The notes under the pieces: model-generated
Seen by the model: the letters and a program-made list of their open reading frames with translations, nothing else
Databases searched by the model: none
What the model was told of the DNA's origin: nothing
NCBI GenBank assembly: GCA_020445245.1
Contig: JAGRHB010000092.1
Span: forward strand, 1 to 7,402
Length of the DNA stretch: 7,402 nucleotides
Direction: 5' to 3'
Source: Gammaproteobacteria bacterium
GTDB lineage: Bacteria > Pseudomonadota > Gammaproteobacteria > Chromatiales > Sedimenticolaceae
Shown here: positions 463 through 6,836 of the stretch, in pieces
Layout: every line of letters begins with the position of its first letter
Numbering within the stretch: position 1 is the first letter of the stretch
Translations under genes and position numbers: made by a program

Positions 463-1292
463 CCGGGGCCGCCTGGCCCGCCCCGGCCAAGCTGAACCTG
501 ATGCTGCGCGTCGTCGGCCGCCGGCCGGACGGTTACCATCTTCTGCAGACCGTGTTTCAGTTCATCGACCTTTGCGATGAACTGTCGTTCCGCGTGCGCG
601 CCGATGGGGAAGTGCGGCGGATCAACGAGGTGCCGGGCGTCCCGGCACACGATGACCTGACACTCCGTGCCGCCAATCTGCTGCGCAACGAAACCGGGTG
701 CAAGGCCGGAGCTGACATCCGGGTGGAAAAACGTATCCCCCTGGGTGGCGGCCTGGGGGGCGGCAGTTCCGATGCGGCTACCGTCCTGGTCGCGCTGAAC
801 CACTTGTGGGGCTGTGGTCTGGAACGCTCCCAGCTCATGCGTCTTGGTCTGCAGCTCGGCGCTGATGTGCCGATTTTCATTCACGGACACGCCGCCTGGG
901 CTGAAGGCGTGGGTGAGCAGTTCACCGACATCGAGCCGGCTACGCCGTATTATCTGCTGCTCGCGCCGGCGACCCGGGTGGATACCGGCAAGATCTTCCA
1001 AGACCCGGAATTGACAAGGAATTCTTCCAGAATCACAATACGCGACTTTCTCGCCGGGGCGCATGGCAACGACTGTCTTGCGGTGGTGAAGCGGCGCTAC
1101 CCGGAAGTCGCTGCCGCCTATGGCTGGTTGGCGGACAGGGCCGAGGCGAGGCTTACCGGGACCGGCGCCTGCCTGTTCGCCGCCTGTGAATCGCAAGCCG
1201 CGGCCGACGAATTGTGGCGGCAACGGCCTGTGGGTGTAGATGGTTTCGTCGTCCGTGGGGTGAACCGTTCGCCTCTGCTCGACGCGTGCTGA
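459..1292 (+). CDS. ispE: 4-diphosphocytidyl-2-C-methyl-D-erythritol kinase
   Basis: IspE phosphorylates the 2-hydroxyl of CDP-methylerythritol with ATP, the fourth step of the cytosolic MEP pathway to isopentenyl diphosphate. The 277-residue product begins MTGAAWPAPAKLNL, close to the family length of about 280. GHMP-kinase features are present: the PAKLNL start with Lys11, RRPDGYHLLQT (21-31) with His27, the glycine-rich ATP loop LGGGLGGGSSDAATV (95-109), GADVPIF with the expected catalytic Asp136, and the C-terminal GTGACLFA motif (234-241). The frame stays open back to ATG 345, but that extension lies inside the TPR gene and precedes the conserved N-terminus, so ATG 459 is chosen. It overlaps the upstream TGA (ATGA) and has no good Shine-Dalgarno of its own, which points to translational coupling. 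tRNA-Gln follows 25 bases after the stop. Confidence 0.96.
   Translation: MTGAAWPAPAKLNLMLRVVGRRPDGYHLLQTVFQFIDLCDELSFRVRADGEVRRINEVPGVPAHDDLTLRAANLLRNETGCKAGADIRVEKRIPLGGGLGGGSSDAATVLVALNHLWGCGLERSQLMRLGLQLGADVPIFIHGHAAWAEGVGEQFTDIEPATPYYLLLAPATRVDTGKIFQDPELTRNSSRITIRDFLAGAHGNDCLAVVKRRYPEVAAAYGWLADRAEARLTGTGACLFAACESQAAADELWRQRPVGVDGFVVRGVNRSPLLDAC
1011..1039 (+). promoter_or_regulatory. Candidate sigma-70 promoter inside ispE
   Basis: A perfect -35 hexamer TTGACA (1011-1016) is followed after 17 bases by CACAAT (1034-1039), a 4/6 match to the -10 consensus. It lies in an AT-rich patch of an otherwise GC-rich gene, about 280 bases before tRNA-Gln and 510 before prs, so it could drive both. 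The patch also encodes a stretch of IspE (about residues 185-195), so the match may be fortuitous. Confidence 0.35.
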
Positions 1293-1317
1293 CCAGTACG
1301 GGTGAAAAGTATTTTTT

Positions 1318-1393
1318 TGGGGCGTGGCCAAGTGGTTAAGGCACCGGACTTTGACTCCGGCACTCGTAGGTTCGAATCCTACCGCCCCAGCCA
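1318..1393 (+). tRNA. tRNA-Gln, anticodon UUG, CCA encoded
   Basis: A complete 76-base cloverleaf can be folded by hand. The 7-bp acceptor stem is TGGGGCG (1318-1324) with CGCCCCA (1383-1389). The anticodon stem CCGGA/TCCGG encloses loop CTTTGAC with anticodon TTG at 1351-1353. The T arm is GTAGG-TTCGAAT-CCTAC (1366-1382). The discriminator G1390 is followed by an encoded CCA (1391-1393). The U1-A72 pair and overall sequence match bacterial glutamine tRNAs, and UUG reads CAA and, by wobble, CAG. The position between ispE and prs is a known arrangement in gammaproteobacteria. Only 25 bases separate it from the ispE stop and no terminator intervenes, so co-transcription and processing are likely. 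Confidence 0.97.
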
Positions 1394-1419
1394 AGTTGAA
1401 AGAGGCCGCGTGGCGGCCG
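1375..1419 (+). repeat. Direct repeat, copy 1 (tRNA-Gln 3' end plus downstream flank)
   Basis: These 45 bases match 1485-1529 at 44 positions; the only difference is G1395 versus A1505. Copy 1 begins in the T loop and covers the 3' strands of the T and acceptor stems, the discriminator and CCA, then 26 bases downstream. It ends in a small GC hairpin (GGCCGC-GTG-GCGGCC, 1404-1418) without a T tract. Confidence 0.95.
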
Positions 1420-1435
1420 GGCGCCGAGGGTGCAT

Positions 1436-1496
1436 GGCGGTAGGATGAGAACCGTAAGGTTCGACGTAGGCGCGCAGTCCGAGTAATCCTACCGCC
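1436..1496. repeat. Palindromic element with internal hairpin
   Basis: GGCGGTAGGAT (1436-1446) is the exact reverse complement of ATCCTACCGCC (1486-1496), giving an 11-bp stem. Inside it lies a second hairpin, GAACC-GTAA-GGTTC (1449-1462). The right arm is part of repeat copy 2, so the left arm is also complementary to the 3' strand of the real tRNA-Gln (1376-1386). As RNA it could fold on itself or pair with the tRNA end. Confidence 0.85.
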
Positions 1497-1529
1497 CCAG
1501 CCAAATTGAAAGAGGCCGCGTGGCGGCCG
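1485..1529 (+). repeat. Direct repeat, copy 2 (pseudo-tRNA 3' end)
   Basis: This copy lies exactly 110 bases after copy 1 and is 44/45 identical. It carries the T-stem and acceptor 3' strands, discriminator G and CCA of tRNA-Gln, but no matching 5' half of a tRNA that could fold. It is therefore a tRNA fragment and not a second tRNA gene. The trailing GC hairpin is repeated at 1514-1528. Confidence 0.95.
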
Positions 1530-1549
1530 CCGATTAGTGACGGGAGTCC

Positions 1550-2506
1550 ATGGTGTCTACCAGCGGGATGATGGTTTTTTCGGGAAACGCCAACCCGCAG
1601 CTGTCCACGGACATCGCGAGTTATCTCGATATTCCGCTGGGAAAGGCCGCAGTCGGCCAGTTCAGCGATGGCGAGACCATGGTGGAGATCCAGGAAAACG
1701 TCCGCGGGCGTGACGTTTTCGTGGTTCAGCCGACCTGTGAACCGACCAACGACAACCTGATGGAGTTGCTGGTGATGATCGACGCGCTGCGTTGGTCTTC
1801 GGTGCGACGGGTGACGGCGGTGATCCCCTATTTCGGCTATGCGCGCCAGGATCGGCGTCCGCGATCGGCGCGCGTGCCGATCACTGCACGCCTGGCCGCT
1901 AAAATGATCGGAACGGCAGGTGCGGACCGGGTCTTGACCATGGACCTGCATGCGGACCAGATCCAGGGTTTCTTCGATATTCCGGTCGACAACGTCTACG
2001 CGTCGCCGATCCTTCTGGGCGACGTGTGGCGCCAGAAGTACCCGGATCTGATGGTGGTGTCACCGGATGTCGGCGGTGTGGTGCGCGCCCGGGCGCTGGC
2101 CAAGCGCCTCGACGATGCGGACCTCGCGATCATTGACAAGCGGCGACCGAAGGCCAATGTGGCCCAGGTGATGAACATCATCGGTGACGTCGAAGGCCGT
2201 ACCTGTGTGCTGGTCGATGACCTGGTCGATACGGCCGGTACATTATGCAAGGCGGCGGCGGCGCTGAAGGATCATGGGGCATCCAAGGTCGTGGCGTACT
2301 GCACACATGCGGTGTTGTCAGGTCCGGCGGTGACCAATATCGAGTCGTCGAAGCTCGACGAACTGGTGGTTACGAGCACCATCCCGCTGCGTGAAGATGC
2401 TGCAGCCTGCAGCAAGATCCGGCAGCTGTCGATCGCGGGCCTGCTGGCCGAATCGATTCGCCGGATCAACAACGAGGAATCGGTCAGTTCGCTGTTCGTG
2501 GACTGA
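1550..2506 (+). CDS. prs: Ribose-phosphate pyrophosphokinase (PRPP synthase), class I
   Basis: Prs transfers pyrophosphate from ATP to ribose 5-phosphate, making PRPP for purine, pyrimidine, histidine, tryptophan and NAD synthesis in the cytosol. The 318-residue product is close to the E. coli length of 315 and aligns throughout. Visible motifs are FSDGE (38-42), the NDNLMELL region (67-74), [10 protein letters not shown] (94-103), the metal/ATP-binding [11 protein letters not shown] (132-142) with His134, the flexible-loop KRRP (197-200), and the ribose-phosphate loop [10 protein letters not shown] (222-231). The C-terminus carries the conserved [10 protein letters not shown]. The start is slightly uncertain: GGGAG (1542-1546) lies only 3 bases before ATG 1550, while GTG 1553 or the ATGs at 1568 and 1571 would suit the spacing or the family alignment (MxxFxGN) as well. 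The tRNA-fragment duplication lies immediately upstream, so its leader may be structured. Confidence 0.97.
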
Positions 2507-2606: not shown

Positions 2607-3236
2607 ATGCAGGAAAATTTTGAAATTATTGCAGTGTCCCGTGGCGATCAGGGCAAGGGTGCGAGCCGCCGCCTGCGTCGCGAGGGGATGGTGCCTGGGA
2701 TCATCTATGGTGGAGGCAGGGATCCGGAGATGTTTGCCACACGTCACAACGAGTTGATCCAGCACCTGGACCACGAGGCCTTTTATTCGCACATCCTCAC
2801 TGTGAACGTGGACGGCAAGACGCAGAAGGTGGTCTTGAAGGATCTGCAGCGCCATCCCTCGAAGCCGTTCGTCACACACGTGGACCTGTTGCGCGTCGCC
2901 GAAGGTGACCGCATCAAGATGCACGTGCCGCTGCACTTCCTCAACGAGGCCACCTGCCCCGGCGTCAAGGCCGGCGGCCAGGTATCGCATACCATGTCCG
3001 ACGTCGAGGTTATCTGTGCCGCGAAAGATCTGCCTGAGTACATCGAAGTGGATCTGGGTGGGATGAATATCGGAGATATCGTCCACCTGAGCGACCTGAA
3101 GCTGCCGGAGGGCTTGGCCCTGGTGGCGTTCAGCCACGGTGGAGATCAGGCGGAGCACGATACCGCCGTGGTGTCCATTCATGCGCCGCGTGGTGGTGCT
3201 GTTGAGGGCGAAGAAGGGGCCGAGGCGACGGAATGA
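2607..3236 (+). CDS. rplY: 50S ribosomal protein L25, long CTC-type form
   Basis: L25 binds 5S rRNA in the central protuberance of the large ribosomal subunit. The 209-residue product has the N-terminal L25 domain (about 1-95), with the GKGASRRLRREGMVPGIIYG segment (17-35) and KDLQRHPSKPFVTHVDLL (78-95). A C-terminal CTC beta domain follows (about 98-192; VPLHFLNEATCPGVKAGG, then the VDLGGMNIGDIVHLSDL segment). It ends in an acidic glycine-rich tail (196-209). This is the long form related to general stress protein Ctc, unlike the 94-residue E. coli protein. The order prs-rplY-pth is common in gammaproteobacteria. A GAGAGAG run 9 bases before ATG 2607 supports the start. A hairpin and a strong terminator follow the stop codon. 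Confidence 0.96.
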   Translation: MQENFEIIAVSRGDQGKGASRRLRREGMVPGIIYGGGRDPEMFATRHNELIQHLDHEAFYSHILTVNVDGKTQKVVLKDLQRHPSKPFVTHVDLLRVAEGDRIKMHVPLHFLNEATCPGVKAGGQVSHTMSDVEVICAAKDLPEYIEVDLGGMNIGDIVHLSDLKLPEGLALVAFSHGGDQAEHDTAVVSIHAPRGGAVEGEEGAEATE

Positions 3237-3323: not shown

Positions 3324-3902
3324 GTGCCAGCGATTCAATGCGTCGTGGGTCTGGGCAATCCAGGACCCAAATATGCCGAGACGCGCCACAATGCCGGTTT
3401 CTGGTTCGTCGATGAACTCGCACGCGCGAATGGTGTCGTCCTACGGGCCGAGAACAAGTTTTCCGGTGAACTGGGACGTATGCGGACGTCAGCAGGCGAG
3501 TGTTGGCTGCTTAAGCCTATGACCTACATGAACCACAGTGGCCGCTCGGTCGCTGCCTTGTGCAACTTCTATCGTATCCTGCCCGAGCAGTTGCTGGTGG
3601 TCTATGACGAGCTGGATCTGTCACCGGGCATGGTGCGGCTGAAGACCGGTGGTGGCCACGGAGGCCACAATGGTATGCGAGACATCTGCGAGGCCATCGG
3701 CAGCAAGGATTTCAATCGTCTGCGCATCGGTATTGGCCATCCGGGGCACAAAGAAGCGGTGGTCGGGTACGTGTTGTCACGCCCCGGCAAGAGCGAGCAG
3801 CAGGCGATCGACAATGGCCTGGGCGAGGCGATGCGGCAGTGGGATCTGATCCAGGGCGGTGAGCTTTCCAGGGCGATGAATGCCCTGCACACGGCGACCT
3901 GA
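3324..3902 (+). CDS. pth: Peptidyl-tRNA hydrolase
   Basis: Pth cleaves the ester bond of peptidyl-tRNAs that drop off ribosomes, returning free tRNA; it is cytosolic and essential in most bacteria. The 192-residue product matches the family length. It shows VGLGNPGPKYAETRHNAGF (8-26) with Asn12 and catalytic His22, KPMTYMNHSG (64-73) with Asn70, VVYDELDL (92-99) with Asp95, and GGGHGGHNG (109-117) with Asn116. These correspond to E. coli Asn10, His20, Asn68, Asp93 and Asn114. Translation starts at GTG 3324, set by a strong GGAGG (3313-3317) 6 bases upstream; no ATG gives the conserved N-terminus. The usual partner ychF is not downstream; a terminator and a convergent gene are. Confidence 0.96.
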   Translation: MPAIQCVVGLGNPGPKYAETRHNAGFWFVDELARANGVVLRAENKFSGELGRMRTSAGECWLLKPMTYMNHSGRSVAALCNFYRILPEQLLVVYDELDLSPGMVRLKTGGGHGGHNGMRDICEAIGSKDFNRLRIGIGHPGHKEAVVGYVLSRPGKSEQQAIDNGLGEAMRQWDLIQGGELSRAMNALHTAT

Positions 3903-3998: not shown

Positions 3999-6767
3999 TC
4001 AGCTGTGATTGAAGACGTATTTCGGCTTGAACCACTTGACCATCAGCGGTAGCAGCATCAACGCTGTAAACACGTCGATAATCAGTGCCCAACCGATATA
4101 CACGGCGAGGCCCCAGGTGTTGGCCAGCGTGGTACCGACCAATGGGATGAAGCTGCCCAGCAGCACCACGATGGAGACGATGACCGCAGATCCGGTGGTG
4201 TTCTGGGTGTTGCGCAGGGCTTCCATCCAGTTGCCGCCAGTGGCCAGCATCTCTTCACGCAGACGCGAGACCATGTAGATCCCGTAGTCCACCCCCAGGC
4301 CCATCGCGATCGACAGCGTCACCAGCAGGTGGAAGGCCAGGTTGCCCGACCAGTTCTCCACCGAGGTGAAGTAGCCACCAAGACCATACTGTGCGAACAG
4401 CGTGATCAACAGGGTCACCGTCAACATCGCCGACACCAGTACCGAGCGGAACATCAGCGCGGCGATCAGGAAGATGGCCAGCGCGGTCTGCAGCGGACTG
4501 ATCAGCCAGTTGACCATTGCCACCTCGCGGGTTGCCTCGGTTGCGCCGAGGAATCCGCCGATACCCGGCCGAACGTAGCCCGGACCATCGACCGAGAGCT
4601 CGTTGCTGTCCCCTGAAGTGTCTGCGTTGCGCAGGCCGAAGTTCACCTTGGAGAAGCCAGGGTCGTTCTTGTGCTCCTCGATGTACTGCTGGATATCCAT
4701 CGTCACCTGGTGCGTCTCCACCGGGTCCATGGTGTTGATGAAGCCGAGGATGACGCCCTCGTTCCAGGTCTCGGTGTTGACGAACGAGTCCATATCGCCG
4801 GATGAGGTCATGGACTCGAGCAGGCCGTTGTACATCCGCACGATCTCGGTCGGACTGCGGTCGTCGTTGGGATCAATTCCGAGCAGGTAGTCCTTGTTGG
4901 GTACACGCAGATCGCTGAGCTTGGTCGGTTCACCCGGTTCCGCGGTGAGCAGCATGTTCACCAGGCGCACGTACTGGGTGTAGGAGCCGGTGTAGCCGAT
5001 GAACGGATGGCCGCGCATCCAGTTCTCCATCTTCTCGATGTCGGTGTGCAGTTCGACCGTATTGAATACGCCCTGCGCACCACAGATCTCCGAGTCCCAG
5101 CAGCCCATCTCGGCCTTTGCCTTCTGGCAGGCCTCGAACTTTTCGGTACGATCGGTGATGTCGAGAATCGACTCCGGGAAGTAGTTGTCGATACAGCCAC
5201 CGATGTTCGGCTCCTTGCCTCGCAACGGGACTGAGACCGAGATGACCCCGGGCATGATCTCGTTGAGCTTGACGAGGTCTTTCCAGGTTGGCGAATTGCC
5301 CTTGAAGGCTGCGCGGGCATAGTTGATGCCCTTCTCCACGCCAGGCATGTAGTCGTTCTCCTCGGCCAGCTTGACGCCGTCCTCCGGAATGCCCTCCCAG
5401 TTCATCAGGTTTGTGTAATAGGTCGAACCGACAAACACCAGGACAGTGACGCCGATCGGCACCCACTTGCCGGGGCCCGAGATCAGGCGCGTCAGGAAGC
5501 CACCAACGGCGGTCTCCCAGCCATGGCCCTCCATCGTCTTGCATGACTCCTGGGTCGGCGGGAAGAGTGTCAGCAGAAGAGGAATCAGCGTGGTCGTGGT
5601 CAGCAGCAGCGTTAGCATGCCGAAGACGCCGAAGTAGGCGTAGTCCTTGTAGAAAGAGATATCGACGGTCGCCAGTGTGGCGAAGCCGACCATGTCGGTC
5701 ACGATCGACAGCGTCGCCGGGATGATTGTGTGGCGGATAGCCTCGCGTGCGGCCGCGTTGCAGTCACCACTCTGTCCGTGTTCGAGCAGGAAGCGGCGCG
5801 TGACCTGGACCGAGTGCCCGATGCCGATCGCCAGCAATAGCATCGGTGTAAGCACCATCATCGTGGTCAGCTTGAACGCGGTGAAGCCCATCAGCCCCAG
5901 GGTCATGGCGATCGTCATGCCGACACCGAGCAGCGGGAAGGCCGCACCGCGCCAGTCGCGGAACTCCAGCCAGAGCACGCCAATGACGATAGCGATCGAG
6001 ATCGCGAACAACCACCAGTGGTCGACCAGATCCGCAAGCATCCACGCAAGGAAGTAAGGCTCGCCGGCAACCAGCAGTTCGACGCGGGGGTCCTGGCCGT
6101 ACTCGTCCATCATCGCGCGCACTTCGCGCACCCAGGGGAGATAGATCTCCTTCACCTCGTCGGTGTAGTCGGCGATCACATAAGCGGCCTTGGCGACGCA
6201 GAAGTCCTTGTCGTAGTCCTCGTACGCGCAGCGATTGCCCTGCGGGTCCCACATGGACACCAGCATCGGCGCCATGACGGGGTTGGTCTTGACGCCCTCG
6301 CGCAGGAAGGCCAGTTGCTCTTTCGCCTTTTCCGGGTCATCGCTGATGCCCTCGGTCGGGATAAGACGTTTGAACACCAGACCGTTCTCGTCGGTGCCCA
6401 TGTACTTGATCTTTTGCGCGGCGATATCGATGAAGTTCGCCGGGCGCGAGTGGGGCAGTGCCTCGAGCTTGTTGTGGATCTCCTGTATCTTGTTGATGAA
6501 CCAGGGCTGCCAGATGTCTCCCTCCTTCACCTTGAGGGAGAACACCATCAGGTTGCCCATGCCGAAGTTGTGTTCCGCATACAGGTTGGTCGCGACATAG
6601 CGGTTGCTCGGTGGCAACAGCGTGTCCGGGTCGTTGCGAATATCCAGTTGCGGTATGAAGAGCGCGCCGGCAATCGTTGCGGCGAGCAAAAATACGATAA
6701 TGAACCAACGGAAGCGCAGTACGAAGTCCGCGTATCCATTGGCCCAGGCGTTGTCATTGGTCTTCAT
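3999..6767 (-). CDS. RND-superfamily (MMPL-type) membrane transporter
   Basis: The 922-residue inner-membrane protein has the duplicated RND layout. By eye there is TM1 (20-39), periplasmic loop 1 (about 40-249), TM2-6 (250-402), TM7 (434-452), periplasmic loop 2 (about 453-756) and TM8-12 (757-908). The first half carries LLAIGIGHSVQVTRRFLLE (311-329) and the second AMGLGVDYGIYMVSRLREE (821-839), the paired TM4/TM10 signatures of COG1033/MMPL-type exporters. Asp827 in the second is a plausible proton-relay residue; the first has His at the equivalent place. Cysteines in the periplasmic loops are C180, C190, C525, C547, C556 and C562. ATG 6767 is chosen over an in-frame start at 6821 because the extra 18 residues would be encoded inside the upstream terminator region, and MKTNDNAW directly precedes TM1. 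Substrate unknown: family members move lipids, hopanoids, hydrocarbons or other hydrophobic compounds. The upstream beta-barrel gene suggests an envelope-transport pair. Confidence 0.88.
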   Translation of the reverse strand: MKTNDNAWANGYADFVLRFRWFIIVFLLAATIAGALFIPQLDIRNDPDTLLPPSNRYVATNLYAEHNFGMGNLMVFSLKVKEGDIWQPWFINKIQEIHNKLEALPHSRPANFIDIAAQKIKYMGTDENGLVFKRLIPTEGISDDPEKAKEQLAFLREGVKTNPVMAPMLVSMWDPQGNRCAYEDYDKDFCVAKAAYVIADYTDEVKEIYLPWVREVRAMMDEYGQDPRVELLVAGEPYFLAWMLADLVDHWWLFAISIAIVIGVLWLEFRDWRGAAFPLLGVGMTIAMTLGLMGFTAFKLTTMMVLTPMLLLAIGIGHSVQVTRRFLLEHGQSGDCNAAAREAIRHTIIPATLSIVTDMVGFATLATVDISFYKDYAYFGVFGMLTLLLTTTTLIPLLLTLFPPTQESCKTMEGHGWETAVGGFLTRLISGPGKWVPIGVTVLVFVGSTYYTNLMNWEGIPEDGVKLAEENDYMPGVEKGINYARAAFKGNSPTWKDLVKLNEIMPGVISVSVPLRGKEPNIGGCIDNYFPESILDITDRTEKFEACQKAKAEMGCWDSEICGAQGVFNTVELHTDIEKMENWMRGHPFIGYTGSYTQYVRLVNMLLTAEPGEPTKLSDLRVPNKDYLLGIDPNDDRSPTEIVRMYNGLLESMTSSGDMDSFVNTETWNEGVILGFINTMDPVETHQVTMDIQQYIEEHKNDPGFSKVNFGLRNADTSGDSNELSVDGPGYVRPGIGGFLGATEATREVAMVNWLISPLQTALAIFLIAALMFRSVLVSAMLTVTLLITLFAQYGLGGYFTSVENWSGNLAFHLLVTLSIAMGLGVDYGIYMVSRLREEMLATGGNWMEALRNTQNTTGSAVIVSIVVLLGSFIPLVGTTLANTWGLAVYIGWALIIDVFTALMLLPLMVKWFKPKYVFNHS

Positions 6768-6801
6768 GGTCCTTGTGCCCTTGATCCTCAGAGTTTCTGG
6801 C

Positions 6802-6836
6802 AAAAAAAGCGGCGCCGGCAAGGCCGAACGCCGCTT
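6802..6836 (-). terminator. Intrinsic terminator after the beta-barrel gene, before the RND gene
   Basis: Read on the minus strand, AAGCGGCG pairs with CGCCGCTT (plus positions 6829-6836 and 6807-6814), enclosing an inner CGGC-CTT-GCCG hairpin. A run of seven T follows (plus A7, 6802-6808). It starts 25 bases after the upstream stop codon. Only 34 bases separate its T tract from the RND ATG, and no promoter is recognisable in them. Confidence 0.88.

Follow-up and report, generated by a model that had tools for sequence, protein, structure and literature searches.

Background

RtT (Rfam RF00391) is a structured RNA that was first recognised downstream of tyrosine tRNA genes in E. coli. The RttR sRNA, or rtT RNA, goes back to Bosl and Kersten 1991, as cited in PMC4986893 and PMC2965389. 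Published work links rtT to the stringent response (PMC4986893), describes BIME elements with rtT similarity (PMC2965389) and a tandem GA motif in RtT (PMC7657543), presents the rtT RNA of Salmonella as a variable tandem repeat of 175 bp (PMC2658671), and lists rttR among sRNAs with REPs (PMC12306157). RtT-type sRNAs that give Northern signals are reported near Asn- and Lys-tRNA genes of Actinobacillus pleuropneumoniae in PMC4986893. Like the locus studied here, they place the RtT family beside non-Tyr tRNAs; unlike it, they are described there as lying upstream of the tRNA, in another host and with other tRNAs.

Here we analyze a 7,402-nt stretch of gammaproteobacterial DNA (hereafter, the window) in which the 3' end of a tRNA-Gln gene recurs downstream. 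The best explanation as a whole is an RtT element of the tyrT-repeat type behind tRNA-Gln, shortened by internal deletion (probability roughly 0.85); the RNA family is known, and the copy in the window is a new, shortened member. It resembles the E. coli tyrT/tyrV RtT repeats in lying behind a tRNA and in having an inverted-tail left arm, a GAACC-type hairpin, a GAGTA-ATCC junction, a tail copy through CCA, and tandem remnants. Unlike them, it has tRNA-Gln as its parent, has lost central hairpins (51 nt compared with the related locus L003), scores below the family cut-off, and comprises one element with a partial unit of 45 nt. An odd repeat is now placed in a named family, and RtT, which is poorly understood and known mainly from E. 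coli tyrT, becomes testable across many tRNAs.

Integrase attachment sites at tRNA 3' ends also show a duplicated tRNA 3' end. The window is like them in its duplication and unlike them in that no island or integrase is seen and a conserved hairpin family lies between the copies.

Results and discussion

The duplicated tail and its palindrome

As an earlier note on this DNA had described, a 45-nt segment recurs at an offset of 110 with one mismatch (1375-1419 and 1485-1529; 44/45 identical, 98%). The repeat begins inside the T-loop of the tRNA-Gln(TTG) gene, and the 18-nt tail within it is copied without change (Table 1). The repeat is real. A 44/45 repeat beside its parent plainly exceeds chance, by inference rather than simulation; the same arrangement recurs at the ispE/tRNA-Gln/prs locus in relatives.

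The 11-bp inverted repeat with the copied tRNA end as its right arm, together with a 5-bp hairpin, also proved to be as the note had read them. The left arm, GGCGGTAGGAT, reads as the copied tail in reverse complement and faces ATCCTACCGCC, which starts at 1486; the inner hairpin, GAACC-GTAA-GGTTC, starts at 1449. RNAfold forms both the 11-bp stem and the 5-bp hairpin when given 1436-1500 (-28.9 kcal/mol). The left arm is matched by the true tRNA end as well, within an 18-nt inverted repeat (1369-1386 and 1436-1453, 89%), and in the RNAfold minimum for 1318-1500 as a single strand (-83.0) it pairs with the true tRNA tail, not with the copy. The stretch alone thus gives the closing stem and the stretch with the tRNA puts the arm on the true tail, so that both pairings are possible on paper. 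The modelled single-strand fold of 1318-1500 unfolds the tRNA and might represent a switch.

Table 1. Features of the window around the RtT element
Feature	Coordinates	Strand	Evidence
Intact tRNA-Gln(TTG), parent of the copied tail	1318..1393	+	ARAGORN; Rfam tRNA 68.4 bits over 1318-1390
Original tRNA tail, 18 nt, from the base after T-loop TTCGA through CCA	1376..1393	+	sequence
First flank copy, with hairpin 1404-1418 without T-run; no terminator on + strand	1394..1419	+	
RtT element (RF00391), both model ends complete, central deletion, 36.0 bits	1424..1503	+	cmscan
Left arm of closing stem, reverse complement of tRNA-Gln tail	1436..1446	+	
RtT hairpin GAACC-GTAA-GGTTC	1449..1462	+	
RtT core remnant, 21 nt (median of 113 cores: 77 nt)	1465..1485	+	
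Putative scar of a 51-nt deletion between GCGCAGC direct repeats; window reads GCGCAGT	1472..1478	+	L003 comparison
18-nt copy of the tRNA-Gln tail, right arm of closing stem	1486..1503	+	
Second flank copy, probable remnant of a second array unit	1504..1529	+	
prs coding sequence, downstream	1550..2506	+	

Beyond prs, the window holds rplY-like (2607-3236) and pth-like (3324-3902) frames, followed on the - strand by a 940-aa frame that by eye resembles an RND/MMPL-type transporter (3999-6821).

The element belongs to the RtT family

Against the Rfam RtT model, the window copy aligns over model positions 1-130, with both model ends and a central gap, at 36.0 bits (E 8.1e-6 on 181 bases). This is below the Rfam cut-off of 45 bits, and the copy is missed at the gathering threshold. 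In a full element, the left arm matches the local tRNA 3' tail in reverse complement; a GAACC/GGTTC hairpin, a further hairpin array, and a faithful tail copy through CCA come next, and the left arm and the tail copy form the closing stem. In the window, the closing stem is present with 11 bp, and the element immediately follows a tRNA whose tail is copied at the element's own end (1486-1503 identical to 1376-1393), a rule that is read from the matches analyzed here and from E. coli tyrT rather than from Rfam's definition. The array of core hairpins is absent, the core measuring 21 nt against the median of 77.

For comparison, the four E. coli tyrT copies that Rfam names RtT score 132.9-137.5 bits, and the E. 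coli rttR annotation stops at the CCA of its tail copy, position 1287066. Nine other loci were included in that scan, and four of them exceed the cut-off (L085, L096, L082, L108). At the ispE/tRNA-Gln/prs locus of relatives, scores above the cut-off are reached in L082 (47.9 bits), L114 (55.4), and L121 (48.9); other orthologous loci stay under it (e.g., L139 with 37.3 and L138 with 38.2 bits). Although its score is under the curated cut-off, RtT membership of the window copy is well supported by its position, the model ends, the tail copy, and the orthologues.

A central deletion and the probable remnant of an array

Aligned with L114, L121, L138, L139, L110, and L082, the window shows a gap at the core, and most core hairpins are gone. 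Between GGTTCGACG and GAGTAATCC, in the central hairpins, L003 and the window differ in length by 51 nt, and within that L003 stretch GCGCAGC occurs twice, exactly this distance apart. The comparison with L003 suggests that a deletion between GCGCAGC repeats reduced the window element. A broken second unit is kept in L114, which shows how the 26-nt flank copy of the window could remain from an array. The repeat unit (tail, flank, and element) was probably once tandem in the window as well, the second unit being reduced to the tail plus 26 nt.

Elements copy the tail of their own tRNA

The core motif with its tail copy also occurs behind tRNA-Tyr, tRNA-Gln(CTG), and tRNA-Ser(GCT) and in the E. 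coli tyrT/tyrV repeats, in tandem at several loci. Short-motif matches away from tRNAs (e.g., L084, L086-L092) were taken as chance. Using the covariance model, we found RtT in 19 of 56 genomes sampled for their relationship to genome G002 (12 above the cut-off) and in 51 of 274 genomes of a class sample (19 above the cut-off). Both samples, which share G002, were run with Infernal's stricter filters and part of the candidates was scored, so these counts are lower bounds. The 14 control genomes gave no RtT match except in E. coli.

We assembled 134 matches, comprising 129 of 135 distinct RtT rows, the window, and the four E. coli matches; six rows were left out (G001:C33:10999, G016:C54:154210, G002:C9:2263, G032:C73, G036:C98:33950, G009:C35). 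A tRNA lies within 1 kb upstream in 109 of the 134; the 25 counted without one include contig ends, split tRNAs, tmRNA cases, and matches that a tRNA overlaps. Homologous cores stand behind Gln, Tyr, Ser, Glu, Arg, Val, and Lys tRNAs and beside tmRNA.

The 18-nt tail copy is identical to the tail of the element's own tRNA in 80 of the 109 matches and has at most three mismatches in 94, with more in the other 15. When each of these 94 copies is compared with 34 tail types, the element's own tRNA is strictly best in 91, tied in 2, and beaten in 1. The base that follows TTCGA is the first to be copied: over 70 single-match loci (among the 94 matches), identity there is 0.99, against 0.81 at the preceding base and 0.03 at the one before that. 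Past CCA, identity decays; it is at least 80% over 20 nt in 32 of the 70 loci, the window being alike, below 50% in 28, and in between in 10. Of the 28 loci with a diverged flank, 21 retain an 18/18 tail. For the most part the family follows a rule: an element holds both a copy of its own tRNA's tail and the complement of that tail.

The left arm covaries with the tRNA tail

The second part of this rule was examined in 82 distinct arm/tail pairs at fixed arm position, with 300 permutations. Pairing between arm and tail exceeds all 300 permutations at tail positions 5-9, with 69/82 at position 6 (permuted mean 34.0, maximum 47) and 71/82 at position 9 (permuted mean 39.1, maximum 49). The excess is small at positions 10-12, and positions 1-4 are uninformative because their letters hardly vary. 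Pairing is lower behind tRNA-Ser than behind tRNA-Gln and tRNA-Tyr (0.59-0.78 over tail positions 5-10, 32 pairs). In the family, the left arm covaries with the tRNA tail.

Over all 12 tail positions there is a significant excess of wobble (G-U 70/271 versus A-C 44/558), but at the covarying positions 5-9 the difference is not significant (12/140 versus 13/224, p 0.39). Such an asymmetry would point to selection on the RNA strand; as it lacks significance at these positions, we do not use it as proof. Within one genus, the hairpin model pairs 97% of cells for Gln (14 sequences) and 99% for Tyr (8 sequences), as against 30-49% when slid, a control over which the model is favoured because it was derived from the same sequences. 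At least two Watson-Crick types occur in 12 of 76 hairpin pairs, six in each set, and the two sets together, which consist of related sequences, hold 15 G-U and 4 A-C cells.

The ispE/tRNA-Gln/prs locus in relatives

Scanning with IspE yielded 80 loci, 78 of which had tRNA-Gln; a downstream tail duplication is present in four of the 78 (L002, L003, L009, L025). The tail region is masked in L001 and cut off in L005, and L101, from the same genome as L005, has the duplication. By eye, the left arm at the ispE loci tracks each genome's own tRNA sequence. Across the whole set of RtT matches, tRNA-Gln(TTG) accounts for 23 in 19 loci including the window, and the other 18 loci all adjoin prs, ispE, or both.

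The earlier note had suggested a pair of att-like repeats around a remnant and had proposed a search for a large island at this tRNA in relatives. In the 76 of 80 ispE loci where both genes could be placed, the distance between tRNA-Gln and prs has a median of 37 nt and never exceeds 396 nt, and no island lies between them. In L066, where prs is absent within 6 kb, we saw by eye no integrase among the listed ORFs of at least 110 aa. Neither the window nor these relatives showed an integrase gene or an island between the repeats, and what the repeats enclose belongs to a recognised RNA family that occupies the same position in relatives, so the att-like pair is not borne out. In phage and plasmid searches with window 1300-1560, only the tRNA part matched among the matches listed (the best 20 of 209 and the best 20 of 126, respectively). 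The E. coli core, compared with the phage set, matched one record, a 515-kb Salmonella contig annotated with RtT RNA.

Descent with the tRNA locus

In one genus, RtT is present in 17 of 22 genomes (above the cut-off in 16). We compared 25 cores with a tRNA out of 44 rows, leaving out L137 (without a tRNA), further array copies, and other rows. Core identity is 0.812 between different genomes at the same tRNA (n=128), 0.632 between different genomes at different tRNAs (n=164), and 0.626 between different tRNAs of the same genome (n=8). Within this genus, RtT elements are inherited with their tRNA locus. At the class level, the corresponding values are 0.665 for the same tRNA in different genomes (n=373) and 0.656 for the same genome with other amino acids (n=22), the third figure being 0.649; divergence is large in the class-level same-genome comparison, and the genus-level comparison decided.

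Such descent makes both an att scar and a currently hopping repeat unlikely. The first of these would take the two tail copies as attL and attR of a vanished integrative element. The sharp start of the copied segment at the T-loop (0.99 versus 0.03 two bases before, 70 loci) is indeed like that of integrase sites, and in related genomes the tRNA-Tyr site is occupied in L031 and empty in L012 and L034, with a post-copy flank that by eye resembles the empty-site flank. However, a deletion between tail copies would equally explain the empty sites, the 76 measurable loci contain no island or large gap, and the inner DNA is a conserved structured family that passes by descent within the genus; we regard the scar as very unlikely. 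Duplicated tRNA ends alone are no evidence of integrated elements.

The second would be a REP/MITE-like palindromic repeat that inserts beside or into tRNA T-loops and is still mobile. It would account for homologous cores behind tRNAs for different amino acids and beside tmRNA, and for six matches at four loci in which cores interrupt complete tRNA copies at TTCGA^ATCC. Against it, the 25 genus cores cluster with others from the same tRNA locus rather than from the same genome, and recent dispersed copies were not seen in this genus (0.626 in the same genome versus 0.812 at the same tRNA); at the class level, too, cores of the same genome at tRNAs for other amino acids are no more alike than those of the same tRNA in different genomes. 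We therefore consider continuing mobility improbable, if somewhat less so than the scar. The small palindromic mobile repeat that the earlier note had envisaged survives in part: the element is a member of a dispersed structured-repeat family, but that family sits at tRNAs in 109 of 134 matches and, in one genus, is inherited with the locus.

Cores inside the T-loops of extra tRNA copies

Removing the core between TTCGA and ATCC restores a tRNA detected by ARAGORN in six matches at four loci out of 113 tested: L195 (three times), L180, L183, and L209, with no clear anticodon in L183. The remaining 21 of the 134 matches were not joinable, as the motif was not found. The split copies stand upstream of the intact tRNA, and their last bases are missing in L195, L180, and L209. 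In L195 (genome G168), the intact tRNA-Gln at the ispE/prs locus is preceded by three identical 213-bp tRNA-Gln units (951-1693), in all of which an RtT core interrupts the T-loop and the tRNA end is missing.

These split copies bear on the suggestion that the window preserves a plain decay of a tandem tRNA-Gln duplication. Ungapped comparison of 1318-1374 with 1428-1484 gives 22/57 matches, exactly the note's hand count; with the second segment shuffled, the mean is 15.7 (sd 3.2) and P(>=22)=0.037, so the resemblance is weak. Extra tRNA-Gln copies, which the note had looked to in relatives, do occur at the same locus in L180 and L195, but split by the RtT core rather than intact. The stretch before the copy in the window is an inverted tail plus a conserved hairpin, common to elements behind unrelated tRNAs, and not a tRNA 5' half. 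Plain decay is thus extremely unlikely for the window. As RtT cores lie inside the T-loop of extra tRNA copies at four loci, the idea of a decayed tRNA does hold in part at the family level.

A tmRNA stands just before the RtT element in L134 (1094-1627) and L164 (1501-2027); by eye, the tail copy resembles the tmRNA tail in L164 and does not in L134. RtT cores also follow sequence like a tRNA 3' half, tRNA-Lys-like by eye, at L137:1501-1631 and L194:1001-1143, in loci without an ARAGORN tRNA.

For the RtT family, a tentative idea, which we think somewhat doubtful, is that the core is a T-loop-specific insertion (TTCGA/ATCC) that enters only spare tRNA or tmRNA 3' ends and gains an arm mirroring the tail in which it landed. 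It would either divide complete extra tRNA copies that precede the intact gene (L195, L180, L183, L209) or lie within a tail copy behind that gene. If true, RtT would be a non-coding, T-arm-bound element, widespread in the class, that transfers rarely and rewrites its arms to a new tRNA. A literature search found no paper on the tail rule or on T-loop insertion; it covered subscription titles thinly and so says little.

Transcription and possible processing

The RtT element is most likely co-transcribed with tRNA-Gln into the prs leader, where the transcript would fold into a closed hairpin RNA. During tRNA processing this RNA would be cut out, and the copied tail would act as its tRNA-like 3' end. 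A pattern scan found no terminator-like site on the + strand of window 1200-1600. Among 80 loci, the same kind of scan placed an intrinsic terminator between the tRNA and RtT in 33, so the two are not always transcribed together. Another terminator follows the tail copy in 20 of these 33 loci.
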